A program made the translations under genes and the position numbers. From Blepharisma japonicum (Eukaryota; Ciliophora; Heterotrichea; Heterotrichida; Blepharismidae), in the NCBI GenBank assembly GCA_949751835.1, contig CATKHK010000043.1:310001-374000 (forward strand): a stretch of 64,000 nt of DNA. The letters are read 5' to 3'. Shown here piece by piece: positions 39 to 55,952 of the stretch; positions within the stretch are counted from its first letter, which is position 1, and each line of letters opens with the position of its first letter. The notes beneath the pieces are model-generated. The model was given only the letters and a program-made list of their open reading frames with translations. It had not been told where the DNA came from and ran no database searches.

Positions 39-2328
39 TTAATCACTTTCTTCGTTAAAATCTCTTTTGTTTATGATTTCAAATAAAACAGAGCGGCTTT
101 TGTCTTTTTCTGGCTCGAAGACCAAGTTTCTTGCTTCTCTTTCTTTATCGACATCTGAAAGCTTGCCCCAAAGTTTTTCACAGCGGACTCTTGTGCTCCA
201 TTGTATGCCTTTACGTACAATGGCTGGGACATCAGGTATGAATACAGAAAGTATCATTTTGAGAAGGAAAAGAATATGCTCCATTATAATGAAGCAAATT
301 CATTGATCAGTTGTGGAGTTAAAGTGAAAGACGTCTCTTGTGAAAACTATTAAGCCTGCATTTGTACCTGCCCCGATGAAAGAGATGATTTGAATTATTA
401 CCATTCATACACCAATAGAGTTGTCTTGGTGAGGAAAAGGCCTTCTTGAAACTTTGATTAATTTTCAGGCATCAACTCTAAGTTCTATTACACATAACAA
501 TAGTGTTAATAATGGACTGAATGGAAAAGAAATCCCAAAAAGAACGACATATCCATAACCAATAATAACTTCCATGTAATCCTCCAGAGGAGTCTCATAT
601 TCACTTAGATTATACTGGTACTCTTCAACTGACAACTCTATATGATTTGGCATTTCTTTTAGTCTTTTATTTTCTTTGTAAAGTTTGACATATTTTTCTA
701 CAATTGGATATCCCATTTCTATCAGATTTAAAAGCAAGCTAATAATAAAAATCACTCCTAACTGCAATCCCAACTCTGACATGCAATCATTATTATCACA
801 CCCTTCATACCTGCCTTTGAAAAACGCTATATAAAATAGAGAGGAATAAGAGTTTACAAATTGAAAAGAAAAAAACTTGACAGTCAAAGCATTCAAATAT
901 TCTGAATCGCTTTCATGATTTTCCCAATCAGTCAGCTGTGCTGATATTTTTTGATAGACAATGTTTAAAATCTTGATTTGGATTGCATTAAATAATCCAG
1001 CTACTCTTGGGCCCCACGAATCTATATTGTTATATGACCGATATATAAAAATTGCAATCAATGAGGCAATAACAAGAGAAACAAAAAAGGCAATCATGCT
1101 TATGGTAAGCATATTTTTAACACAAGCATGCTTTTCATTTTCATTTATTTTTTTCATTTTCCCACTTATTGGATCTTTTTGATATACACCTTTATATTCA
1201 GGTCTCTGCTCTTCATGGACCTCAAACTCTGAAACACCCCATTCCCAAGCCAAAGTTTTCTCTCTTCTTACCCAAATCTGGTCCATAAAAGTGCTTCCAA
1301 TGCTTAGCATCCATGCATAAAGCATAAAAGCAACTTCAGCCCCATTCATCGCTGTACTTTCAGGATCGTCAGCTGAATAAATGATAATACCAAAAATGCT
1401 TCCTATAACCGAAGGGATAACAAGCCACGCTGTATAAGTTTCAAGCCATGCAAAATACATCGCTATTTTCTCTCCAAAATAATCTTTTACTTTAGCTATT
1501 TTTTGAGCCCTTCAGAAATGCCTAAAAGTTACCCATTCTTTATCTAGATATCTCAATATTGCTTTATCATGCTGGGGAAATTGTGATTCTAATATCTCTT
1601 TAGCAGTGAGCTCACCAAGATCGACTACGCTAGTAATCATACTATATACAAGTCTAGCTTTGTCTTTATACTTAAAGATACTCCCATCTGTAAATTCATT
1701 TCCAAACTGGTCATATCGCTGATATATGTGCTCTAAATATTTTTTACCTTTGATATCTCCTTTATTTTCAACGTCCCTTTCATAAGGGCCATAAGGAGCT
1801 ACTTTTTGAAAATCCAATGTATCATTTGGATCAGTTTGAAATTGCAGCTGGTAATCTACTAAATCTGCTTGGACTTTAAGATTGTGCTCACTGCTTGAAA
1901 GCTTATAAAATAGTTTATCACCTAAAACTGACACTGTCACACTTACATTGAGCTGTAAATGATCTTGAAATATTTTCAGCATTGTTGTTAATACTTCTTG
2001 TATGATTATCTTCATTTGGATAGTTGGATTTGTTGAAAAATAGCCTCGGATTTTCCCTAAGCCTTCTTGATAAATAGGGTCATTCTCACTGATCATGAAA
2101 TAGCGCTTAAATTTTTTCTCTGCTGATCCTGCTGGCACATCTTGGTCAAAAAGGTCACATTTGTAATTTTTACTTTCCATATCAAAGGGATTGTTGAAAA
2201 CCAGGATGTAATGATGCAATTTCTCTGAGTCTAGTACTATTCTTTTGCCATTTGAGCTCTTAGAGGTGTTTGATTCTTCAAAAGGCAGCTAAGATACAAC
2301 TTACCACTGTCTTTACTTTGCTAATCAT
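39..2328 (-). CDS. Anoctamin (TMEM16) family membrane protein, paralog A
   Basis: Predicted 757 aa. Anoctamins are multi-pass membrane proteins acting as Ca2+-activated anion channels or lipid scramblases. Residues about 1-270 form the cytosolic N-terminal region; the rest carries the transmembrane core with family hallmarks: LTDWENHESDSEYLNAL, then FVNSYSSLFYIAFFKGRYEGC, then YMEVIIGYGYVVLFG and IELRVDA. The Glu and Asp of the last motif match Ca2+-binding TM8 residues of the family. Four in-frame TGA codons read as Trp. The start is ATG at 2328: an 8-codon first exon is joined by a 16-nt intron (2289-2304) to the long exon, which otherwise has no ATG at its head. It is followed downstream on the same strand by nothing in the window and preceded by a close paralog (2503-4758). 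Channel versus scramblase activity cannot be told from sequence alone. Confidence 0.92.
2289..2304 (-). other. 16-nt intron in anoctamin A
   Basis: Read on the minus strand it is GTAAGTTGTATCTTAG. Removing it drops a TAG that would otherwise end the frame and joins an ATG-bearing exon to the anoctamin frame. Confidence 0.85.
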
Positions 2329-2502
2329 ATTTAATGAAACTGTTGCTTTTTAATAAAATGAGACAAATTTCATGATTTTTCCAGAGTAATCGATGATTTT
2401 TAAAATAAAAAATTAGTAATTATGGTCACCATATTTTGAATAATAAAAGAATTTAGAGGGTTTTTTATTAAGATATTAAATTAAGATATAAAAAATATTT
2501 TA

Positions 2503-4758
2503 TTATTGATCGTTTTTATTATAATCGGAAAAGGTTTTGTCTGCGATTTCTATTAAATCATATTTTCTTTTATATTCAAGTGGCTCAAATACTAAATTTC
2601 TAGCTTCTCTTTCTTTGTCAATATCAGAAAGTTTCCCCCATAATATTTCTCCTCTTACCCGAGCACTCCATTTTAAACCATTTTCAACTATCCCAGGGAC
2701 ATCAGGAATAAAAACAGAAAGTATCATTTTCAAAATAAAAAGAAAATGCTCTAAAGCTATGAAACAAATCCATTGGTCAATTGCTGAATTTAAATGAAAT
2801 ACATCTCTAGTGAATATTATTAGACCCATATTTGTGCCTGCTCCTATAAATGAAATTATTTGAATAATTACAATTCATACTCCAATCGAGCTTTCTTGTG
2901 CAGGGAATATTCTTCTTGTTGCCTTAATTAATTTTCATGCATCTACTCGAAGCTCTATAATGCAGAGAAATAAAGTCAACAAAGGACTGAATGGAAAAGA
3001 GATCCCAAATAAAACAACATAGCCATAGCCAATAATTACTTCCATATAATCATCTAAAGGGGTTTCATACTGGATTAAATTATACTCAATTTCTTCTGCA
3101 GATAAACCAATCTTGGCATCATTTTCTTTAATTTTTTTATTTTCTTTATATAGGTTTATATAATTTTGAACAATTGGCAAGCCAATTTCAATGAGATTCA
3201 AGCAAAGAGTTATAATATATATTACCCCCAATTGGAATCCAAGCTCATATACACAGTTTTCACTATCACAGCCTTCATATTTCCCTTTAAAATATGCAAT
3301 ATAGATCAATGAAGAATAAGAATTAACAGACTGAAAAGCAAAAAGCTTGATTGTAAGTGCGTTCTGATATTCCGATTCAGTTTCACAATTTTCCCAATCA
3401 GTCAACACTACAGCAATTTTTTTGTAAATGATATTCAAAATTTTTATTTGAATTGCATTAAAGATTCCTGCAATTCTTGGTCCTCATGAATTGTCATTAC
3501 TATTTGCTCTGTAAAAGAAAATTGCTACTAATGAAGCAATTACAACTGTAACAAAAAATATTATGGTGCTTAAGCCTAAGACATTTTTTAAAATCGAGTG
3601 CCTTTTCTTCTCATATATTTTCTTCATTTTTCCAGATATTGGGTCCTTTTGATAAACTCCTTTATATTCAGGCCTTTGTTCTTCCTGACCTTTTATGTCA
3701 CAAACTCCCCATCTCCATCCTAATACTTTTTCTTTCCTTAGTCATATTTGGTCCATAAAGGTGCTTCCAATACTCAAAAGAAATGCATATAAAAAATAGC
3801 AAACTTCACCTGCATTTATTGAATCAGAAGGGCCAGAGTCAGCTGAATAAATAATAATTCCAAAAATGCTTCCAAATATAGAAGGGATAGTAAGTCATCA
3901 TATATAATTTTCTAATCATGCAAAATACATTGATTGCTTTTCCCCGAAATAATCATTTATTTTGTCAATGTTTTGGCGCCTCCAAAAATTTTTGAAAGTC
4001 ACTCACTCTTTATCAAAATAAGTTAGTATTCGATGATCGTGCTGAGGAAATTGAGCATCAAGAACTTTTTGTGTGGTTAATTCTCCAAGCTCAATAACAC
4101 TTGATATCATGCTGTATACCAATCTTATCCGATCTTTATGCTTAAATATGCTCCCATCTGGGGTTTCATTCCCTAGCTTATCGTATCGCTTATATATTCT
4201 TACTAAATAAAAATCACCTTTCTCATCTCCTTTATTCTCTGCATCTCTTTCATATGGACCATAAGGTGGTACTTTTTGATATTTCAAATCATCATTTGGA
4301 TTAGGCTGAAACTGAAGCTGATAATCGACTAAATCCGCTTGAACTTTAAGATTGTGCTCTGTACTAATCAGTTTAAAAAAGAATTTATCTCCTAGAAGTG
4401 ATAGTGTTACTGTAACATCAAGCTGCAAATAATCTTGAAAAATTTTTAAAGTTGTTAATAAGAATTCTTGAACCAAAATTTGCATTTTGACTGCCGATTT
4501 TCCAGAGATTTGACTTCGAATTCTATCAGTAGCTTCACGATAGGCAGATTCATCTTCACTTATATTAAAGAACCTTCGAAATTTAACTTCAGCTTTCTCT
4601 GAAGATATCTCAGAATCATAAAGTTTGCATTTGTAAGATTTCTTTTCTGAGTCAAAAGGATTGTTGAAAACTAGTATATAATCATAAAGCTCAACTGCGG
4701 GTGTCTCAGTGTTCTCATCTATTGAATCATTCAGCATTGATGATACATCATTAGCCAT
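2503..4758 (-). CDS. Anoctamin (TMEM16) family membrane protein, paralog B
   Basis: Predicted 751 aa in one uninterrupted frame once TGA is Trp; it uses TGA for Trp many more times than paralog A (for example NDSWGPR and ENYIWWLT). It has the same domain order: cytosolic N-terminus starting MANDVSSML, then the TM core with DWEN...SEYQNALTIKLF, VNSYSSLIYIAYFKGKYEGC and IELRVDA. The C-terminal helix region contains FIPDVPGIVENGLKW. It lies head-to-tail with paralog A, 174 bp apart, and the two are similar along their whole length, so this is a tandem duplication. It has no N-terminal intron, unlike paralog A. The start at 4758 is the first ATG and is not preceded by similar sequence. Confidence 0.92.
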
Positions 4759-32932: not shown

Positions 32933-34369
32933 TTAGACCAGGGCCCAAAATTCAAGCTTTACTATATTAAAATATTCTCTGCCGCTTAAAGTATCATTTG
33001 CATACGTCTTGCAAAAACCGCTTGAGCCATGAACAAAGTTTCTATCAATATATAATCCAATTTTCCCGCCAGAACCCATAGAAATCCCATCAGAATCTGA
33101 ATTCATATAATAATCATTCTCCAATGTAGGGAAGAAACATTGCAATCTTCTCGATGTATGAAAAGTAAATAAAAAGCAGTCTCCGGTTCCATAAAATACT
33201 TTACTCGGTTTCCATTGATGCGAAGCAAATCCTCCAAAAATATGATGGTCGCTGTCTTCTATCACTACAACAGAAGGTCCGGCGCCTTCAAGAAGCCTGA
33301 AAAATACATCATAGCTTGTTCCATGGACTGTAAAAGAATATGAAAGATGCCAATTTCTGATTTGGAAAAGCATTCCCATGTTTTTTGTGATTTGCTTGAC
33401 CATTGACTCATTTAGTATCTCACTTGGCCTAGAAAGTTCAGGCAATATGTCTCCTTCATCTGGAATTACGCTGAACCTTATGCTTTTTCTGGTTTCTACC
33501 TGAAATTCTTCAATTTCTAGGTTTAAATCTTGGTATTTTTCTTCTTCATTTGCTTGCTCAAAAACTGACCCTTTCAATCCAATTTCTACATACTGCTGAT
33601 ATGACTTATTCAAATCGTAATAAGGCACAAAAGTCTTGCATCCGTGCATTGGTGACAATTTTTCAAGCTCTTGTCTTGCTTTTACAAGCCCAGCTAGTTC
33701 ATCTGCGTTTACTTTCTGTTCAAAATAGGTATACTGTCCATTTGGTCCCATATCAGAAATCTTAAAATACACATTGGCTTTAGGAATGTTCGTGCTGATG
33801 TCTTTTTTTTCTTTTCCTGTTTTAGTAATAACGAACTGGACAAAGAAGTTTTTGGCTTTATCTTCTGGGTTTAAGGCGTTCAATGATGGCAATTCTAGCA
33901 CACTGCAAGTTGCAATGTCTCTTATTGCAATGCACAAACGAAACTGGCTTGCTGGAGCTGAGTATTTCCTCGTGTTTGCAATGACTTCACATCTATCATT
34001 ATGTGACAATGGGCAAAAGATGACTCTATCGTGAGAAACACCGAGATCTCCTATTACATCTCCATCAGCGGTACAGTAAACAGATTCAACTGTATAGTCG
34101 TTTCTAGAGTCAATTGAAAAAAGAGTTTGCTCTAGTGATAAGCTTTTTACAGAGCTGGCGATATCAGTTTCATCTGTTTTATCTTCATATTCTTCGACCG
34201 AAAGAGATTTAAAATCTGAGGTCTGTACCTTCAAAACCATTCCAGGAAAAATATCTTCTTCCTCTTCAAGTTGGTTAATTTGGCAAAGATCCTCAATTGT
34301 CATACGGAGGGATGATGATATACTTACTAAAGAGTCTCCCGGTTTCACGGTATACCGTTCAAATTCCAT
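32933..34369 (-). CDS. LysM-TLDc domain protein (OXR1-like)
   Basis: Predicted 478 aa. LysM at the N-terminus (RYTVKPGDSLVSISSSL then IFPGMVLKV, residues 5-50), a GRAM-like middle (YCTADGDVIGDLGVSHDRVI) and a C-terminal TLDc domain (residues about 320-478) with WHLSYSFTVHGTSYDVFFRL, DSDHHIFGGFAS and FYGTGDCFLFTF. This is the OXR1/NCOA7 architecture: such proteins protect cells from oxidative stress and bind V-ATPase. The chain ends KLEFWALV, the usual TLDc terminus. Single exon with no TGA. Start at the first ATG, which lies immediately before the LysM. Confidence 0.92.
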   Translation of the reverse strand: MEFERYTVKPGDSLVSISSSLRMTIEDLCQINQLEEEEDIFPGMVLKVQTSDFKSLSVEEYEDKTDETDIASSVKSLSLEQTLFSIDSRNDYTVESVYCTADGDVIGDLGVSHDRVIFCPLSHNDRCEVIANTRKYSAPASQFRLCIAIRDIATCSVLELPSLNALNPEDKAKNFFVQFVITKTGKEKKDISTNIPKANVYFKISDMGPNGQYTYFEQKVNADELAGLVKARQELEKLSPMHGCKTFVPYYDLNKSYQQYVEIGLKGSVFEQANEEEKYQDLNLEIEEFQVETRKSIRFSVIPDEGDILPELSRPSEILNESMVKQITKNMGMLFQIRNWHLSYSFTVHGTSYDVFFRLLEGAGPSVVVIEDSDHHIFGGFASHQWKPSKVFYGTGDCFLFTFHTSRRLQCFFPTLENDYYMNSDSDGISMGSGGKIGLYIDRNFVHGSSGFCKTYANDTLSGREYFNIVKLEFWALV

Positions 34370-41642: not shown

Positions 41643-43400
41643 ATGAATGCAGCAGAAAGCTCAGCTATATTAGTATTTCTATGTCTTTTTCTTATCTACA
41701 GTGCAATAACAGTATTATGTGGCTTTAGAGCAGTCAGGCTTCACAAGTTCTCATCTGAGTGAAGGCATACTAAGTTTTTCTACCTTACAGTACTTTTTCA
41801 AGCCTTATTACGAGCTATTTGTTTCTTGGTGATCCTTACAAATATTGGAAACATCGATAATAAAGGAATTTACTTGTTACTCTCCGTTCCTGACTCTTTG
41901 TTCGTTGTGAGTTATTTGATGCTTACTTGGCAAACTCTAACAGTTTTTTACTATGCCCATCACTCTCAATTACGATCCTCTTTTTTGGCGAAACTTGCAA
42001 AAAGACCTACACATAGCTTTGCAAGTGCAATGCTTGTCACCTTGCTGATATTTTGGCTCTTTGCGCAAAGCTTGCTTTATCTATTGATGATAGCTAATAT
42101 TATAACTGAGACAAATATTTCAACGGAAATAGGACTGGTGAATTTTATTCTACCTGTTTTTGTAATAGGATGCATGATTTATCTACAGATTAAATATTCA
42201 GGAATGCCTGCAAGATCCTTAATATGAAAATCTAGGTTAAGGAAAATCAACTGTGTAACCATATTTTGATCAATTGCGAGATTTGCAGGAGGAATTGATA
42301 ACATTTTAGCTGAATACTCAGATCCAAGCATCAGTTCAAATATTACAAATAGAACTGATCATGCCATGGACACTGCTGCAGCTGCCTTAATGATTCTTTC
42401 TTTAATTATTAGCGAAGTTATCTGCATGGTCTTGGTACTAGATTTCAGCTTTATAGGAATTTTTTTATTCTCTGAAGAAGATGACCAGCAGAGTTTAATA
42501 GATCGAAGCCCTTCTGTGCAGCAAACCCGCTCAAGTGGGTCTTCAGAAAGAGATGACTATACAACGTTCAGTATGATCATTACTAATATGATGATGACAA
42601 TGGATGATTTAGAAATCAAAGAAGAAATTCCTAGCAGGAAAAACGGTTTCGGCAAGCTTTATAAGGCGAGCTATAAAGGTATGCCAGTTGTTTTAAGAAA
42701 AATTATCTTTAAAAGATTGAGTGGCTATGTGTTGGAAGAATTCACAGCAGAAATTGACTCATATCAAAATTTAATAAGCAATAAAATTATCCCAATTGTT
42801 GGAGTAATTTTGGATCTTCCTACCGTAGGCATTGTATCACCTTACATTAATGGAGGATCTTTATATAAAGCTCTTCATGTGGATAAGACTGATTTTACAA
42901 AGCAGGAAAAATATCATATGGCGCTTGAGCTTGCAGCTTGCTTAGAAACAGTTCATGCTCAGGGTAAAGTGCATGGCCATCTGAGCTCAGAAAATATTTT
43001 GCTTAATGATGAAGGAGTTGCCTTAATTTCTGACCTAGGATTTCAGAAAATGAAAAAATATGCAGGAATTATATTTGGGTATACAAATAAGTCAGGATGG
43101 AGCTCTCCGGAGATTTTGCAAGAAAAAAGACTTACACCTTTGAAAGTTGTACCAAGTGATGACATTTATAGCTTTGGGATGATTTTATGAGAATTAATTA
43201 CAGGACAAGAACCCTTCCCAGGCTACTCAAGTCAGCAGTTATATCAGCATGTAGTTGTTGATAATTATCGACCTATGGTCCCAGCTGAAATCCCAGAAGC
43301 TCTGCGGAGCTTAATTATTTCTTGCTGGAATAAAGAGCCAGCAAGCAGACCTTCAATGCAACTTATAGCTAGAACATTAACCCGTCTAATTAATGAATAA
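41643..43400 (+). CDS. 7TM (TOM1/THH1-like) receptor fused to a TKL pseudokinase
   Basis: Predicted 585 aa. The first 275 residues hold about seven TM segments resembling the TOM1/THH1 family (QALLRAICFLVILTNIG, LLLSVPDSLFVVSYLMLTW). A Ser/Asp-rich linker follows, then a kinase-like domain from about residue 320: FGKLYKASYKGMPVVLRKI keeps the ATP-binding Lys (about 351). The catalytic loop reads HGHLSSENILL in place of HRDLxxxN, so the catalytic Asp is absent, and the metal-binding DFG is DLG. The APE position reads SPE. It looks like a pseudokinase of the kind found in receptor guanylyl cyclases (HGNLKSSN) and JAK JH2. TGA Trp codons are used. Ligand unknown. Confidence 0.82.
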
Positions 43401-43410
43401 TAAATATAAA

Positions 43411-44277
43411 ATGTTTCGAGCAATCCCTACAGGAAATAAAGTGCTGACTAAGAAATGAAATGAAAGAAATGACGAACTCTTAGGCAAAAGGATTAAAAAC
43501 ATCCGTCCTATGATTGATAACACTTGTCCAAGTTCTTTTGGAGTCCAAAAAAAGTTATCAAAAAGAGAAAAACTGATCGAAGGTAACATCTAAAAAGATC
43601 GATACTCAGAAATAGAAAAAGATAACAGACATTTGCTTGAAAGAATGTCACAAATCATGAATAACCGAGCACAATCTTGCAAGCCAAAGACGCATTCAGT
43701 CAAAAGTTTAAATTTAGACTCAAGGAAAAGGTCTTTAATAAACATCACTTTAGAAAACCAAGCAATGCTTAAAAGGCTAAGGAGCAAAAAAGCAGTTTAT
43801 AGTGTCAAAAAATGAGAAGAAGAAAGAAAAAACAACGAAAACATTTTGAATGTGATTTGCGAATTTCCGTATAAATTAGGCAATAATTTGAGAATCAGAA
43901 AAACACTTTCAGAAACAAGCTTCAAAAAAATAAGGCAGCGCGGATCAATTGATAGTAATATTGAAAAGCCTATATCACAAGAGCTTTTGTTCAAAAAAAG
44001 TGTTGTGATATCAGGGCAGAGTTTCATGTTAGAAATTATGAAAGGAAATACGTAAAATCTATATAGCCATATACAAATTTTTGTAATTGATGGAGAAAAT
44101 CAAAGATGTTTTAATTTAGAAATGTCAATTAAAGAAGTACATAAATTAATCAGAGGAGATAATTATGAAGATTTAGTAAAAATGTTGATGCTAGAAAATG
44201 ACGAACTTGTATTAGTCAAATATGAAACGAAAAATAAAGACGAAAAGACACCAAATGTTTCATGTCCGAGCATATAA
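43411..44277 (+). CDS. CFAP97/Hemingway-like ciliary protein
   Basis: Predicted 278 aa from three exons. It contains the conserved block of the CFAP97/CFAP97D family (Drosophila Hemingway), which is needed for axoneme maintenance: RYSEIEKDNRHLLERMS, then SLNLDSRKRSLINITLENQA and KRLRSKKAVYSVKKWEEE, where the Trp is TGA. Introns 43583-43597 and 44052-44066 are required to keep the frame. The start lies 10 bp after the stop of the 7TM gene. The rest of the chain is charged and of unknown fold. Confidence 0.8.
43583..43597 (+). other. 15-nt intron in CFAP97-like gene
   Basis: GTAACATCTAAAAAG; phase-1 intron, removal gives LIEDRYSEIEKD. Confidence 0.82.
44052..44066 (+). other. 15-nt intron in CFAP97-like gene
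   Basis: GTAAAATCTATATAG; removal gives KGNTHIQIFVIDGEN and another 66 or so codons to TAA. Confidence 0.8.
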
Positions 44278-48497: not shown

Positions 48498-49997
48498 ATG
48501 GACCCTTTTTTCATTGCAGCAAGCAAACTTCGTAGGAAGCATTATGATGAATGTATTGAAATATGTGACCAATTACTAGCAAAAAATGCATATGATCAGG
48601 CTGCGTGGTTCTTGAAATGTAGAGCTTTAACGTTAAAATGCTGGATTGATGATCTTGAAATTGATGAAGAAGGTATGGCCGATATTATGCTTGATGAAAA
48701 TTCAGTCGCTGCAGTTCCAAGGCCAGGAACTTCAATTCAAAGACCAAATACTTCAGCAAGTGGGGGAATTTCTCCAGCTATGAGGCCAGTTACTCGAGGT
48801 GGGAGACCTATAACTGGATTTGCGAGACCTGGATCTGCAAGACCAACTTCATCATCAGGTTCTATAGAAGCTGCAATTAGATCACAAACTGGAAAACCAG
48901 GCACGGCAAGGCCGGTCACAAGCTCTGGAAGATATCTAAGATTAGGGACAGCTTCAATGCTAAGTACCGGAGATCAATTTATTGTTGCAGAAAAACTTGA
49001 TATGAAAAGAATGGCTCAAAAGCAGGCTATCGCTAAAGCGCTATGTGATTATTTGATATATGTTGACCATAACCCAAAAAAGGCTTTAGAGTTATGTGCC
49101 GAAGCTACAGTTGTGTCTGGCTTTCAAGATTGATGGTGAAAATCGAGACTTGGAAAATGCTATTTCCAGCTTGGACTGTTTAGAGATGCACAAAAGCAGT
49201 TTGAAAGCAGTTTAAAACAAGAAGATATGATTCCTACACATGTAGAACTAGCAAAAGTGTATATCCGGCTAGATCAACCTAATTTCGCACTAAATCAGCA
49301 TAAAAAAGCACTAGATAAACATCAAGAAAATGAGAATTTGACATTAGCATTAGCCAGAGTCAATGAGCTCATGAATAATGCTGATTTAGCTGCTTCTCTT
49401 TTTAAAGCAGTTTTGCAAGTAAACCCATGCAATATTGAAGCAATAGCATCCCTCGCTTCTCACAATTTCTATACAGACCATCCAGAAGTTGCCCTAAGGT
49501 TTTATAGAAGGCTGCTACAGCTAGGAATCAGCAACGTAGAAATTTGGAATAATTTAGGATTAGCTTGCTACTATGCAGGACAATATGACTTGTGCATGAA
49601 ATGCATGGAAAGAGCTTTGGATGCTGACGATAGCAATGGAGATGTGTGGTACAACATTGCAAATATCGCAATAGGCATGGGAGAGCTGAACATGGCTTAC
49701 CATGCCCTTAAAGTTGCTGTAAGCGTAGAAAATACACATGCAGAAGCTTTTAATAATTTAGGAGTTCTAGAATTGAGAAAAGGAAATGTAGAGCAAGCAA
49801 GAAATTATTATCAGTCAGCCATAAGGATTGCTGACTATTTGTATGAACCACTCTATAACTCAGCGCTGCTTGCATTTAGAACTGGAGAAATGCAAGAAAG
49901 CTACAACCTTGTGCAGAAAGCTCTAACAATATTTCCTGATCATGCTGACTCTAAGGAGCTCTTAAAGACCCTAAAACAGCATTTTGATTCTTTATAA
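48498..49997 (+). CDS. BBS8: BBS8/TTC8 BBSome subunit
   Basis: Predicted 499 aa. BBS8 is a TPR subunit of the BBSome, the coat that moves membrane cargo in cilia. Diagnostic conserved stretches: the Arg/Pro/Gly-rich PVTRGGRPITGFARPGSAR, TARPVTSSGRYLRLGTASML, then FQDWWWKSRLGKCYFQLG, where human TTC8 reads KDWWWKVQIGKCYYRLG. TPRs fill the C-terminal half (for example RFYRRLLQLGISNVEIWNNL, NLGVLELRKGNVEQARNYY), ending LKTLKQHFDSL. In the WWW, codons are TGA-TGG-TGA. 20 bp after WDR47. Decayed partial copies lie at 51589-51885 and 54890-54960. Confidence 0.96.
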
Positions 49998-50010: not shown

Positions 50011-50994
50011 CTATTTCTTCGTAAATTTTTTCTTTCCTGGTCTAAAAGATGTAACGACGTCCAATCTTTGGGTGATATTATATATTCCGGCCATTTGTAT
50101 TCCTGATTTCAAAGCATAATTTGGTCCTGTGTATCCCCAATAGTCCCAACTCCCAAAATAATTAATTTGCCCTAGTGTGAGGCACTGTGGGTAAATGACA
50201 ATGATGTTATTGGCTTCAGCCCATTCATTAAGACCAGTATCCTTAACGAATTCGAGTCCAATCCAGTAGTGATTCTGCTTCCAGCTATGAAGTGCGACAT
50301 GAACTTTGCATGGGTTATCAACGCAATACTCAGGTTGATAAATGTAGCCGAAAGTGTCCATTCCTGCGCTGGAATTAGATACAAACTCATGCTGAGGGAA
50401 ACTGTACAAATTTGAAGAATTCTGAGTAACTGGTGGCTTTAAAGTGCCATAAATTGTTTTTAACAAAAGTCCAGCTGCATCAACATTGCATTTGTTTATG
50501 TATGGAAGATCAGGAAAATCACAAGGATTTCCTTTATCGACAGTAATCCATCCATACTCAACTACCAGGTTAGTTGCTGTAGTAATTCTACTAGTATTCA
50601 TAAAACTTTGATAATAAGCATAGAGTTTTTTTCTCACACTATTAATTGTAGTTATATCTTCAGATGATTCAAAAATTCAAACGCGATTATTTGCTAAGTT
50701 TGCAACATCGTCAATATTCCCTGCTGAAGCCTGTTCTTTAGTATATTGAACTAAAGCATCAATATTTATTAAATATCCAGCCTCGCTACATGCAGTGTCT
50801 GACGTTACAGATGAACCTTGGGCGCAGTAATACGGCACACCTCAAAAAAGGCCTACTCCCTCGCAATCTGCAGAGAATGCAACATTTAGCTGGACTGCCA
50901 TATTTGCTCCAGGATCCAAACCTGAGGCACTGAATGCCTGGGATGATAAAGAAAGACCTAAAAGTCCCAAGAAGAAAGCAAATTTCTTCACCAT
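50011..50994 (-). CDS. Secreted PHB-depolymerase-like protein, copy 1
   Basis: Predicted 327 aa with in-frame TGA Trp. Signal peptide MVKKFAFFLGLLGLSLSSQ. It belongs to the circularly permuted alpha/beta-hydrolase family of poly(3-hydroxybutyrate) depolymerases: N-terminal box then ANMAVQLNVAFS, PYYCAQG, Asp in ESSEDITT, His in HVALHSWKQ, and SWDYWGYTGPNYALKSGIQM. The nucleophile box GLSSG of active enzymes reads GLDPG, so the catalytic Ser is missing, and the oxyanion Cys motif (HGC/GCWDWW) has also changed. It may be an inactive esterase or a secreted binding protein. Copy 2 is nearly identical. Confidence 0.85.
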
Positions 50995-51411
50995 ATTTTA
51001 GTATACAAGACCGCAGAGTAAGTGGCGGAATAAAATAATGTTATTTAGATGATTAATGGTCATTTTTGATAAAAGATTAGCAGTTCATAATAAAAATTCA
51101 AAGGAATTTCTAATTCTTAGTAAATCATTTCAAATCTATCCAAATGGCTATCCTTTAACAGTATTGAAAATATAGAAATTTTTAGCTAAAACAGAGTAAT
51201 ATTTCAAAATAATTTATATATATTTTAAAAATTATTTCTAATTGTTTTCTTTAATTAAACTATCAAGTTTTCATAACTAATAGTTGGGAAAATTTGATTT
51301 TGTCGAGATGATAATGATGACAATAATAGGAAAGTAAAGATAAAGCATTTTTGAGCGCAAACAGATTGTGAAGATTTATGAAAACATTTAGCACTTAATT
51401 ATCCTTAGAGT
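50995..51411. repeat. Duplicated 5' flank of PHB copy 1
   Basis: It resembles the flank of copy 2 (53221-53640), for example the shared stretch beginning near TTATTTCTA and the segment ending ACTTAATTAT. The first part also resembles the flank of copy 3. Confidence 0.65.
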
Positions 51412-51567
51412 ATACAAATTTGTAAAATTTGAGAAATTGCTAGTTGTAATGTGCAATAAATCGATTCAGCAAAAGACCAGCTACATCGAGTTGTATGCTA
51501 TTTAAAAATGGAGCTCCATAATACCAGCAAGGATTTTCTTCATTGCTAGTAATCCATGCAAAATTAT
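51412..51567 (-). pseudogene. Fragment of a PHB-depolymerase-like gene (copy 3 type)
   Basis: It is similar to 55366-55518 within copy 3 (shared CAAATTTG, AAATCGATT, TGGAGCTCCATAATACCAGC), covering only an internal part of the gene. No complete frame. It abuts a BBS8-derived fragment at about 51589. Confidence 0.75.
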
Positions 51568-51588
51568 AGAAGCTGATTATATCATAAA

Positions 51589-51885
51589 CCGGAAAAACTA
51601 GGCATGGAAAAGCAGGTCACACAAGCTCTGGAAAACATCTAAGACTAGGGACAGCCTCAATGCTAAGCACTGTAGATCAATTTATTGTTGTGGAAAAACT
51701 TGATATGAAAAGAATGGTTCAAAAGTAGGCTATGCTTAAGCCCTATATGATTATTTTGATATATGTTGATCATAACCAAAAAATGGCTTAGGATTAGCTC
51801 GTTATTATGCAGGAATATATGACTTGTCCATGAAATGCATGGAAGGAGCTTTGGATGCTGACTATAGCAATGGAGATTTTGATAT
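51589..51885 (+). pseudogene. Decayed fragments of BBS8
   Basis: 51589-51792 matches BBS8 48889-49087 (GGTCACA, ACTTGATATGAAAAGAATGG), and 51793-51885 matches BBS8 49554-49645 (ATGACTTGT, GCTTTGGATGCTGAC). About 470 bp of BBS8 lying between the two matched parts is missing. The frame is broken by in-frame stops and small changes. Confidence 0.85.
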
Positions 51886-52248
51886 TTTTTATTTAATTTG
51901 ATATGATATAATTACTTTTAAAATTGACTATTTCATCATTTTTTGATGCCTAGGTCGAGAACATTTTTCGATTCTGAATAACTGATTGGAAAACATTCAA
52001 CCTTTAAAGCTTAAACCGTCTTACAAAAGATGACTCTCTTCCCAGCAGGTGATCCCGAAAAACTCCCGTCACCTTTTTCAGATAAGTTTTCATCTATCAA
52101 ATGACTGTAAAAAATTCTTAGTGTTTTTTATTTTTTAAAAATTATAAGGACGGCAGAAAAAAAGTCATATATGCTTAATTTAATTTGTGCTCAAATGCAA
52201 TGAATTGCACTTTTATTTAAAGTTATTTACATCTTCCTCAGTTATCTC
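51886..52248. other. Non-coding spacer in duplicated region
   Basis: AT-rich except for 52030-52110, a 26-codon open frame (MTLFPAGDPEKLPSPFSDKF...) with no homology I recognise; nothing else. Confidence 0.4.
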
Positions 52249-53220
52249 TTAGTTAAATTGTTTACTTGGTCTAAAAGACGTAACAACATCCAATCTTTGA
52301 GTGATATTATATATTCCGGCCATTTGTATTCCTGATTTCAAAGCATAATTTGGCCCTGTATATCCCCACCAGTCCCAACTCCCAAAATAATTTTGATTTA
52401 GTTGAAGCAGCTGTGGGTATATGACAATGATGTTATTGGCTTCAGCCCATTCATTAAGACCAGAGTCCTTAACGAATTCGAGTCCGATCCAGTAGTGATT
52501 CTGCTTCCAGCTATGAAGTGCGACATGAACTTTGCATGGGTTTTTAACACAATACTCAGGTTGATAAATGTAGCCGAAAGTATCCATTCCTGCACTGGAA
52601 TTAGATACAAACTCATGCTGAGGGAAACTGTACAAATTTGCAGAATTCTGAGTAACTGGTGGCTGTAATGTGCCATAAATTGTATTTAACAAAAGTCCAG
52701 CTGCATCGAGTTTGCATTGAACTATATATGGAATATCATTATAATCACAAGGATTTCCTTTATCGACAGTAATTCATCCATACTCAACTACCAGGTTAGT
52801 TGCTGTAGTAATTCTACTAGTATTCATAAAACTTTGATAATAAGCATAGAGTTTTTTTCTCACACTATTAATTGTAGTTATATCTTCAGATGATTCAAAA
52901 ATTCAAACGCGATTATTTGCTAAGTTCGAAACATCATCAATATTCCCTGCTGAAGCCTGTTCTTTAGTGTATTGGACTAAAGCATCAATATTTATTAAAT
53001 ATCCAGCCTCGCTGCATGCAGTATTTGATGTTACAGATGAACCTAAGGCACAATAATACGGCACACCTCAAAAAACACCTACTCCCTCGCAGTCTGCAGA
53101 GAATGCAACATTTAGCTGGACTGCCATGTTTGCTCCGGGATCCAAACCTGAAACACTGAATGCCTGGGATGATAAAGAGAGACCTAAAAGTCCCAAGAAG
53201 AAAACAAATTTCTTCACCAT
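52249..53220 (-). CDS. Secreted PHB-depolymerase-like protein, copy 2
   Basis: Predicted 323 aa in one frame through TGA Trp codons. Signal peptide MVKKFVFFLGLLGLSLSSQA. Very similar to copy 1 throughout, ending FRPSKQFN instead of FRPGKKKFTKK. As in copy 1 the nucleophile box reads GLDPG (no Ser), Asp is kept (SSEDITT), and the His motif reads HVALHSW. Located in the middle of the segmental duplication, flanked by decayed BBS8 fragments on the left and a decayed copy of the gene at 56279 on the right. Still an intact frame, so it may be expressed. Confidence 0.83.
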
Positions 53221-53909
53221 ATTTTTGTATAAGATACCACAGAGTAGTGCCAGCATAAGATTAGAATTTAAATAATGTTATTTAGATGACTAATTGTCAG
53301 TTTTAATAAAGATCAGCATGAATAAAATTCAATGGAATTTCTATTCTTAGTAATTATTTCGAATCTTTCTAAATGGCTTACCTTTAATAATATTTGGAAA
53401 TATAAAAAATTTTAATTAAAAGAGTAATATTTTCAATATAATTTATTTGTATTCCAAAAATTATTTCTACTTGTTTCCTTTAATTAAACAAACAAGTTTA
53501 CAAAATTAATAATTGGGGAAAAAAGTTTTTGTTGAGATGGTGATGACAAAATAATAAGGAGGTAAAATAAAGTTTTTTTAATCGTAGACAGACGTTGAAG
53601 CTTTTAGAAAACACTCAATACTTAATTATGCTTAGAGTGCAGGGGAGAAAAAGCAAATAATCCATTTGGAGCACATTTTCGTCATAAAGATGGATATGAG
53701 CTTTCCCTTTTGGTTTATGCCTGGCTTTTTGGTATTAGTTCCTGGAATAGATAATTGACTGCAAAAACCCAAGACCTCAAAGTAACTAGGAAGAGTATAA
53801 TTGAGCCCTGCCTTTCGGAAATACAAGCTTGGTAAGACAGATAAAGAGGAAGACTCAACTATTAAACCACTTTTTAAAAGTTGCTATATATCATATCTAA
53901 CAATTACTT
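53221..53909. repeat. Duplicated flank of PHB copy 2, with unexplained open frame
   Basis: 53221-53640 resembles the flank of copy 1. 53632-53826 (minus) holds a 64-codon open frame (MYFRKAGLNYTLPSYFEVLG...) of gene-like composition with no recognised homology. Confidence 0.5.
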
Positions 53910-54010
53910 TTTCAATTTCAGTCTAATAATAGAATTTAATATTGGAAAGATCAATATGCATTTTAATCAATAGCTTAGTTGTTTTGCCGAATTTTGCCCT
54001 AAAAGGAGTA
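53910..54010 (-). pseudogene. Decayed fragment of the 56279-56725 gene
   Basis: It resembles 56290-56420 (shared TCAGTCTAATA, GAAAGATCAATATGC), the 3' part of the gene next to PHB copy 3. No open frame of useful length. Confidence 0.7.
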
Positions 54011-54889
54011 GCTTATATGCTTAGCGTAAATTATTAAATCTTTTATTTCCACTTTTACATTTAAAAAGCTGTTCCAATTTTCAAATTGATCATTTCCTTA
54101 TTTTTAATAAACTGTGAGTTTATTTTACTAAATTAATATTTTGATTTCAAATATCTTAAAGACTTGTCTTGATTTCTTAAAACTTTATAAATAGAAAGCT
54201 TAATAAGCTATCAAAATATAAGAAACTCAAATAGCATCTTGTATTTTCGTAAGCTTAAAAATTTTAAATATCGCTCTGGGAGTTATATTACAATTGGGAT
54301 ATTTTGAATTAGCTTATACTTCCAGGATATGTTTCTAATAAACATATATTGATTAATTTGGCCTATTTAATATTCTTATTGTTAATTTTATATGTATTTC
54401 ATAGGATTTTTACATGGAGCTTCTAAATTATTTTGCGAGAGTTTTTCTCTGTTTTTTTCAACTGTGCTTCAAGTACTCCAGTAGATCTTTATGTAGGACA
54501 TTGAGATAGATAGATGAAGAAATTTCGCATTCATCGTGGGAAAAAACCAGAAGCAAATATCTGTGAAATGCTGCTACATATACTTTAAAAAGTAATTAAA
54601 AATAGTGATTCTGTAAAAAATAATCAAAGTTGATTATTACCTTTAGACATTAATTTTCTAGACTTATGCTCTAAAAAGCGCTCTTTTTATTGAATAATAA
54701 TTCTGCAGCCCTGAATAATAATATTGACAGTGAGGGCAAGCTCTAATAGTAAAATTGTCCAATGGACTGATAACAGCAAACTTATACTTCAGCAAGGGTG
54801 ATTTATGAACAAAATGATGTGTATCAGAAATCCAGAGTTCTCAACAACATCAATTGATCTAATCTTAAAGAGATTTGCAAAAATCATTT
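54011..54889. other. Spacer, AT-rich
   Basis: No complete gene. A + strand stretch near 54500-54595 has gene-like composition (IEIDRWRNFAFIVGKNQKQI if TGA is Trp) but no start or homology I recognise. Confidence 0.4.
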
Positions 54890-54960
54890 ATTACCAGAGT
54901 ATATGGACTTTAAGGGCCTACTAAAGACACTAAAACAGCATTTTTATTCTTTATAAGTTA
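54890..54960 (+). pseudogene. Decayed BBS8 3' end
   Basis: It resembles BBS8 49935-50010: the encoded PEYMDFKGLLKTLKQHFYSL versus PDHADSKELLKTLKQHFDSL, with the following TAAGTTAATTT also shared. It stands right before PHB copy 3, as BBS8 stands before copy 1. Confidence 0.85.
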
Positions 54961-54968
54961 ATTTAAAC

Positions 54969-55952
54969 CTATTCCTTAGTTAAGCTTATCTGGCCAGGTC
55001 TAAAAGATGTAATAACTTCCAAGCTTTGTGTAAGATTATAAATTCCAGCCATTTGGATCCCTGATTTCAAAGCATAATTTGGTCCTGTGTATCCCCACCA
55101 ATCCCAGCATCCATCTGAATTAATCTGTGACTGTGGAAGCACTTGTGGGTAAATGACTACAATGTTATTGGCTTCAGCCCAGCCGTTAAGGCCATTATTC
55201 TTAATAAAAACAGCTCCAACAGCATCATAGTTCTGATTGCAGCCATGAAGAGCGACATGAACTTTGCATGCATTTTCAATGCAATATGCAGGTTGATAAA
55301 TCCAGCCGAAAGTGTCCATTCCTGCGCTGGAGTTGGACACAAACTCATGTTGAGGGAATTGATACAAATTTGCAAAATTCTGAGAAACTGCTGGCTGTAA
55401 AGTGCCATAAATCGATTTTAGCAAAAGTCCAGCTGCATCGAGTTGACAGTTATTTATAAATGGAGCTCCATAATACCAGCAAGGATTTCCTTCATTGCTA
55501 GTAATCCATGCAAAGTTGGCTTGTTGGTCAAATGTTGCATTAATTCTATGATTGTCCATAAGGCTTTGGTAATAAGCATAGAGTTTTCTTCCTACGCTTT
55601 GGTTTACAACTTCATCCTTTGCTCCTGCAAAAATCCAAACATGGTCCGTTGCTACGTTCACTACATTGTCAATGTTCCCAGCTGAAGCTTGATCTTTAGT
55701 GTATTGGACTAAAGCTTCTGTATTTATTAAATATCCAGCATTGAGGCATGCAGTAGATGCTGTTACTGCTGAACCTTGGGCACAGTAATATGGTGCTCCT
55801 GCAATAAGGCCTGCTCCTACGCTGTCTGCAGAAAATGCAATGTTCAATTGGACTGCCATATTTGCGCCAGCACCCAAACCTGAGGCAGTGAATGCCTGGG
55901 ATGATAAAGAAAGGCCTAAAAGTCCCAAGAAGAAAACAATTTTCTTCACCAT
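54969..55952 (-). CDS. Secreted PHB-depolymerase-like protein, copy 3
   Basis: Predicted 327 aa with an uninterrupted frame and no TGA. Signal peptide MVKKIVFFLGLLGLSLSSQA. The least changed copy: it keeps Asp (AGAKDEVVN), the HGC motif (VALHGCNQN) and the SDGCWDWWGYTG region of PHB depolymerases. The nucleophile box, however, reads GLGAG where active enzymes have GLSSG, so the catalytic Ser is replaced by Gly. Active-site His and Asp remain, which suggests selection on the fold or ligand pocket. It begins 9 bp after a decayed BBS8 3' end, in the same relative position copy 1 has to intact BBS8. Confidence 0.87.
   Translation of the reverse strand: MVKKIVFFLGLLGLSLSSQAFTASGLGAGANMAVQLNIAFSADSVGAGLIAGAPYYCAQGSAVTASTACLNAGYLINTEALVQYTKDQASAGNIDNVVNVATDHVWIFAGAKDEVVNQSVGRKLYAYYQSLMDNHRINATFDQQANFAWITSNEGNPCWYYGAPFINNCQLDAAGLLLKSIYGTLQPAVSQNFANLYQFPQHEFVSNSSAGMDTFGWIYQPAYCIENACKVHVALHGCNQNYDAVGAVFIKNNGLNGWAEANNIVVIYPQVLPQSQINSDGCWDWWGYTGPNYALKSGIQMAGIYNLTQSLEVITSFRPGQISLTKE

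Follow-up and report, generated by a model that had tools for sequence, protein, structure and literature searches.

A single frame for two domains

Here we describe a gene of the heterotrich ciliate Blepharisma japonicum, located at 41643–43400 (+) of a 64,000-nucleotide stretch of DNA (the window; contig CATKHK010000043.1, positions 310,001 to 374,000), whose 585-residue product joins a predicted seven-helix domain of G protein-coupled receptor (GPCR) fold to a TKL-type pseudokinase domain. Seven full-length paralogues lie elsewhere in the genome, and in all eight proteins the catalytic Asp of the kinase-like domain has been replaced by His. The initial annotation, made from the letters of the window, had proposed a seven-transmembrane (7TM) domain and a TKL pseudokinase in one chain, a proposal supported by the single frame, the seven predicted helices, a match to the kinase profile PF07714 and the altered HGH motif.

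The frame is uninterrupted, with an in-frame TAA directly 5' of the ATG and TAATAA at its end, provided that four TGA codons are translated as Trp: W40 (41760–41762), W195 (42225–42227), W209 (42267–42269) and W516 (43188–43190), all on the + strand. W40, W209 and W516 occupy columns that are invariantly Trp across the eight paralogues, while the column of W195 is variable. The related Blepharisma stoltei has a genome of 41 Mbp, reads UGA as Trp and has introns predominantly of 15 and 16 bp (PMC9942806). As far as can be read from the sequence, the gene described here needs no intron. Its frame holds two GT...AG 15-mers, both in sequence that aligns without gaps in the paralogues, and a hidden 15-nt intron was therefore rejected; removal of any of the four GT...AG 16-mers would break the frame. 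Introns of 15 nt with GT...AG ends and an in-frame stop were recognized nearby, one with TAG in a neighbouring SNAP gene (38245–38231, −) and one, read by eye, in the gene downstream (44052–44066, +). No clear peak emerged when GTA...TAG spacings were roughly counted across the window (15 nt, 21 versus 16.3 ± 4.0; 16 nt, 24 versus 17.8 ± 4.9), so the statement on nearby introns is based on these two individual cases. A bacterial promoter scan stayed at shuffle level and is irrelevant here.

A family of eight fused paralogues

The genome (45.2 Mb, 224 contigs) was searched with the whole protein, and the best 75 of 835 first-look candidates were scored, so that counts of kinases at large are lower bounds. 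Eight of the 75 places are full length (from query residue 1–10 to 579–585), each on a different contig and none with a frame break in the alignment; the seven paralogues are 63, 35, 34, 34, 33, 32 and 28% identical to the window protein. The other 67 places match the kinase half only, none beginning before query residue 249. When the seven-helix half was used as query, taken from the window protein or from the distant member L007, each search at E up to 10 yielded eight candidates, all scored, and these were the identical eight genes both times; the 7TM module was thus not found alone or with another partner in this genome. Homologues carrying each half as a separate gene, which the initial annotation had named as evidence that would tell against it, were accordingly sought here and not found.

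The 7TM halves and the kinase halves, each placed in a tree, fall into the same three groups, L001 with L002, L003–L005 and L006–L008, although support for the second is only moderate in the 7TM tree (83/90) and the two trees differ within the third (85/91 versus 85/86). A single clade (100/100) unites the eight kinase halves in a tree of 26 kinase domains from this genome. This comparison included 18 of the 22 other kinases fetched (L009–L030), with L022, L027, L028 and L030 left out for unclear frame choice and L020 and L026 aligned without their N-lobes; 45 further kinase matches lie outside it. The agreement of the trees, together with the single kinase clade, indicates that the fusion predates the duplications. 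The alignments and trees show two domains in one frame in all eight genes, diversified together.

In the closest pair, L001 and L002, the proportions of synonymous (pS) and nonsynonymous (pN) differences are 0.74 and 0.22 in the 7TM half and 0.67 and 0.22 in the kinase half. The two domains are joined by a flexible, fast-evolving linker (residues 276–315, 42468–42587, +), for which the predicted local distance difference test score (pLDDT) of the structural model is under 50. None of the 45 positions from 276 to 320 is invariant, and the nonsynonymous divergence (dN) of the same pair is 0.70 over linker columns 283–332 versus 0.26 in both domains. Low nonsynonymous change in both halves and high change in the linker argue for constraint on both domains but not on the linker; chance as the origin of the frame is excluded by the eight full-length paralogues, in which synonymous change is close to saturation and nonsynonymous change is limited.

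The kinase-like half

The TKL-type domain (residues 315–585, 42585–43397, +) reaches the C-terminus, and all eight proteins stop at the kinase C-lobe, with no second catalytic domain. A separate profile search of each half, as the initial annotation had proposed, identified this one: PF07714 matches the window protein with E 4.9e-39 and is found in 8/8 members (the 7TM half gave only a match below cut-off, described below). The best Protein Data Bank (PDB) matches are CTR1, MLKL, TNNI3K and MLT, followed by Src/Abl-type and Eph kinases and BRAF.

The HGH reported in place of HRD was confirmed at 42972–42980, within the catalytic loop HGHLSSEN (residues 444–451, 42972–42995, +). The Asp is replaced by an invariant His in all eight paralogues, whereas it is kept in 22/22 other fetched kinases of the genome, including the four left out of the tree, each of which has an HRD or YRD Asp. 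The initial annotation was mistaken in stating that the ATP-binding Lys is kept: the Lys it read is the residue next to the beta3 (VAIK) position, which is Arg352 (42696–42698, +). This position is Arg in seven paralogues and Lys only in L008, in contrast to Lys in 16/16 other aligned kinases that cover it. The Gly-rich loop is degenerate, and one loop glycine is invariant. The catalytic loop has no other acidic residue that is fixed, position 450 varying between E, D, H and Q.

The DFG-type motif reads DLG (residues 464–466, 43032–43040, +), with invariant Asp and Gly; both Mg2+ ligands, D464 and the catalytic-loop N451, are invariant in 8/8. The activation segment KKYAGIIFGYTNKSGWSSPE (residues 471–490, 43053–43112, +) contains invariant KYAG, NK, W and SP. 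Overall, 34 of 265 positions are invariant in the kinase half versus 15 of 275 in the 7TM half. The catalytic Asp is thus shown by the alignment to be lost in all eight members, and these replacements suggest that the kinase-like domain is inactive.

The seven-helix half

An AlphaFold2 model built from the eight-sequence alignment (pLDDT 73.6, predicted template modelling score 0.71) places helices at residues 3–33, 38–67, 73–112, 124–150, 156–184, 193–226 and 240–267, which together make up a domain spanning residues 3–267 (41649–42443, +). Hydropathy alone calls six or seven helices, missing the sixth in five of the eight members, the window protein included. A GPCR-like arrangement is predicted, with the N-terminus outside and the kinase-like domain cytosolic.

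A profile of this half gave no match among PDB sequences at E 10, and against NCBIfam the half had one chance-level match (E 0.22); DUF3810 was hit by a single member (E 0.00058, under the cut-off of that family) and was judged chance. Among viral predicted structures nothing was found at E ≤ 0.001, the top rows being viral GPCR homologues, uncharacterised proteins and one phage membrane protein. The initial annotation had assigned the half to TOM1/THH1. The corresponding profile, PF06454 (THH1/TOM1/TOM3), is matched by L002 only, weakly (E 0.59, 9.9 bits against a cut-off of 25) and co-linearly, with residues 11–206 on positions 19–204 of 273 (196 residues). In the other seven members nothing was matched at E up to 10 by HMMER, a program whose filters drop most weak matches, and a search of the genome with the profile, run without a control, found none. 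On these comparisons the TOM1/THH1 label is not established.

G-protein machinery in the genome

No match to the Galpha profile PF00503 spans more than 119 of its 333 positions; those over the cut-off are confined to a single stretch of contig C42, where the longest frame under translation table 4 is 212 residues, and most matches in this genome search, which had no eukaryotic control, are to the region that Galpha has in common with small GTPases. Ric8 gave no match in the genome, again in a search without a control. RGS was found at nine places over the cut-off and at a tenth only together with its neighbour; Arrestin_N was found at 24 and at a 25th together with its neighbour. The genome thus presents, against no eukaryotic control genome, RGS domains without an evident Galpha.

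Neighbouring genes and distant matches

The initial annotation had also remarked on ciliary neighbours. The next gene downstream (43459–44277, +) does contain a frame (43645–44055) that matches Hemingway/CFAP97, just above the cut-off (E 6.1e-6), but in a gene-dense macronuclear genome this vicinity carries no functional weight. Elsewhere in the window are two tandem paralogous multi-transmembrane proteins of 713 and 751 residues (39–4758, −), anoctamin/TMEM16-like by eye; a LysM and TLDc protein (32933–34369, −); and three tandem paralogous, secreted-looking open reading frames of 327–335 residues (50011–55952, −), one of which was tested and had no Pfam match at E 0.01. Between the latter lies a fragment (51830–52138) resembling the TPR gene at 48498–49997, probably a remnant of segmental duplication.

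No relative turned up in three scans of viral and prokaryote contigs, and a further contig scan of a prokaryote collection gave 14 loci whose matches begin at query residue 255 or beyond (L074 at 255, L076 at 282, the remainder at 311 or beyond), 11 of them over at least 225 residues. Thirteen gave a frame with the search motif, none with seven helices; the lack of a viral or prokaryote relative with the 7TM half is as expected for a eukaryotic gene. The catalytic loops of the 13 frames have HRD in seven, HSD or HAD in two and HRH in one, and were not read in three. The HRH case, L079 from a Myxococcales record, has HRHLQSHN for HRDLxxxN, so that here too a His takes the place of the catalytic Asp; the protein looks soluble.

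Discussion

We consider it probable that this gene is one of eight paralogous receptor pseudokinases with an allosteric or docking output, in a ciliate with a Blepharisma-type code. We read the same dead site in eight diverged copies, combined with invariant Mg2+ ligands and a conserved activation segment, as most likely marking a surface kept for regulation or docking. The 7TM bundle would shift in response to a ligand or a membrane signal, and this movement would be transmitted through the flexible linker to the pseudokinase. With its conserved activation segment and possibly a bound nucleotide, the pseudokinase would then work allosterically or as a docking site, recruiting or switching another effector, such as a separate active kinase. 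The receptor protein itself would transfer no phosphate, and it has no second enzyme domain in cis.

Several points weigh against this explanation. The GPCR fold is a prediction from only eight sequences at a pLDDT of 73.6, Foldseek found nothing at E ≤ 0.001, and none of the members hit a GPCR family profile. RGS and arrestin-fold places are present in the genome, and the Galpha search was made without a eukaryotic positive control. Also, some kinase families with inactive motifs have been reported to be active (BUB, SCY1 and possibly SLOB; PMC1420674).

The best placed of the alternatives, although unlikely, is that the 7TM half is a conventional GPCR whose pseudokinase tail only tunes it through trafficking, desensitisation or scaffolding; the GPCR-bigram review proposed such tuning for inactive bigrams as its model E (PMC6033456). 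The predicted GPCR-like fold and the RGS and arrestin-fold genes speak for it. Against it stand the lack of a convincing Galpha and of a Ric8 match in profile searches run without a eukaryotic control, which makes direct coupling to a heterotrimeric G protein less likely, and the greater conservation of the kinase half, a poor fit with a mere tail.

We regard it as rather doubtful that the 7TM half is instead an endomembrane scaffold of the THH1/TOM1 type, with the pseudokinase as its recruiting arm, and not a surface receptor. TOM1 is a tonoplast protein that binds ARL8. Besides the co-linear match of L002, this idea draws on the choanoflagellate RSF family, which has a weak THH1/TOM1/TOM3 link and a helix between the sixth and seventh transmembrane segments (PMC12716839); our model has a short helix there (230–235, pLDDT under 50). 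The RSF motif NxLQxxMNxL is, however, absent from all eight 7TM halves, and HMMER, with filters that drop most weak matches, detected PF06454 in none of the other seven members at E up to 10.

Still less do we favour an atypical but active kinase, in which another residue replaces the lost Asp. The invariant DxG Asp, catalytic-loop Asn and loop glycine, and the precedent of the reportedly active families named above, would be compatible with catalysis; the family has nevertheless lost the HRD Asp in every member, the beta3 Lys in seven of eight and an intact Gly-rich loop, and no acidic residue is fixed in the catalytic loop to stand in. Finally, two adjacent genes read as one, or a pseudogene, can be rejected with near certainty: the four TGA codons would interrupt the frame under the standard code, but three of them fall on invariant Trp columns, and eight fused paralogues have constrained codons in both halves.

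The initial annotation knew of no described system with this pair of domains, which is too strong, as GPCR-TKL fusions are in print (PMC5784254, PMC6033456, PMC1420674, PMC12716839). They were described from oomycetes, with 17 in Phytophthora infestans, and from amoebozoans, with "no evidence" elsewhere in 2018 (PMC5784254, PMC6033456). The oomycete GPCR-TKLs, a class of GPCR-bigrams, share with the ciliate family an N-terminal 7TM domain, a C-terminal TKL-type kinase domain in the same chain and expansion as lineage-specific paralogues; 8 of the 17 in P. infestans carry a DEP domain (PMC5784254, PMC6033456), whereas the ciliate family has none and lacks the catalytic Asp in all eight members. 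Of the families in the P. infestans kinome, TKL has the largest number of members predicted to be catalytically inactive, mostly with transmembrane domains (PMC3019232), so single dead receptor-like TKLs are not new. In Dictyostelium, 7TMK1 and 7TMK2 also fuse a kinase domain to seven transmembrane segments, 7TMK1 being a TKL, but these are two proteins and not a pseudokinase family, and 7TMK1 is discussed as a kinase that possibly phosphorylates tyrosine (PMC1420674). The same architecture occurs in other lineages: acanthoecid choanoflagellates have GPCR-TKL/Ks, and GPCR-TKs are found in choanoflagellates and sponges. The 2025 survey that describes them infers repeated independent fusion and states that none has been characterised functionally; its main text has no occurrence of "pseudokinase", and its GPCR-TKL/K section has no ciliate member, although its taxon list has ciliate proteomes (PMC12716839).

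Ciliates do have described 7TM-PIPKs, or GPCR-PIPKs (PMC3823935, PMC9960496). These resemble our family in joining a 7TM domain to a C-terminal kinase-type domain, but that domain is a lipid kinase. B. japonicum has its own: L060, L063 and L065 are one-frame genes with six to eight hydrophobic peaks and PIP5K, and at L061 and L066 a multi-transmembrane frame immediately precedes the PIPK frame. No kinship of the two kinds of 7TM half was detected (hhalign probability 0.4%). The kinase-homology domain of receptor guanylyl cyclases and JAK JH2, to which the initial annotation had likened the HGH loop, are regulatory pseudokinases with an altered HRD whose target is a catalytic domain of their own chain; the ciliate protein shares the altered HRD but ends with its pseudokinase. 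In open-licence PubMed Central text, preprints and supplementary tables aside, neither a ciliate GPCR-TKL nor a 7TM-pseudokinase family was found. The architecture is already known; its family-wide inactivation in a ciliate is new.

One role proposed for GPCR-TKLs is phosphorylation by the attached kinase (PMC6033456). That the same invariant His replaces the catalytic Asp throughout the family speaks for signalling without catalysis by the attached domain, in one lineage at least. It could even be, and we propose this more tentatively than the explanation above, that heterotrichs have evolved a dedicated GPCR-pseudokinase class whose sole output is a selectively maintained dead kinase acting purely by allostery or docking, in a cell possibly without a heterotrimeric Galpha. 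The family adds ciliates to the published distribution of GPCR-TKLs and would provide a clean test of how a GPCR-type bundle drives a pseudokinase, as well as a candidate sensory family in a single-celled group with rich behaviour.
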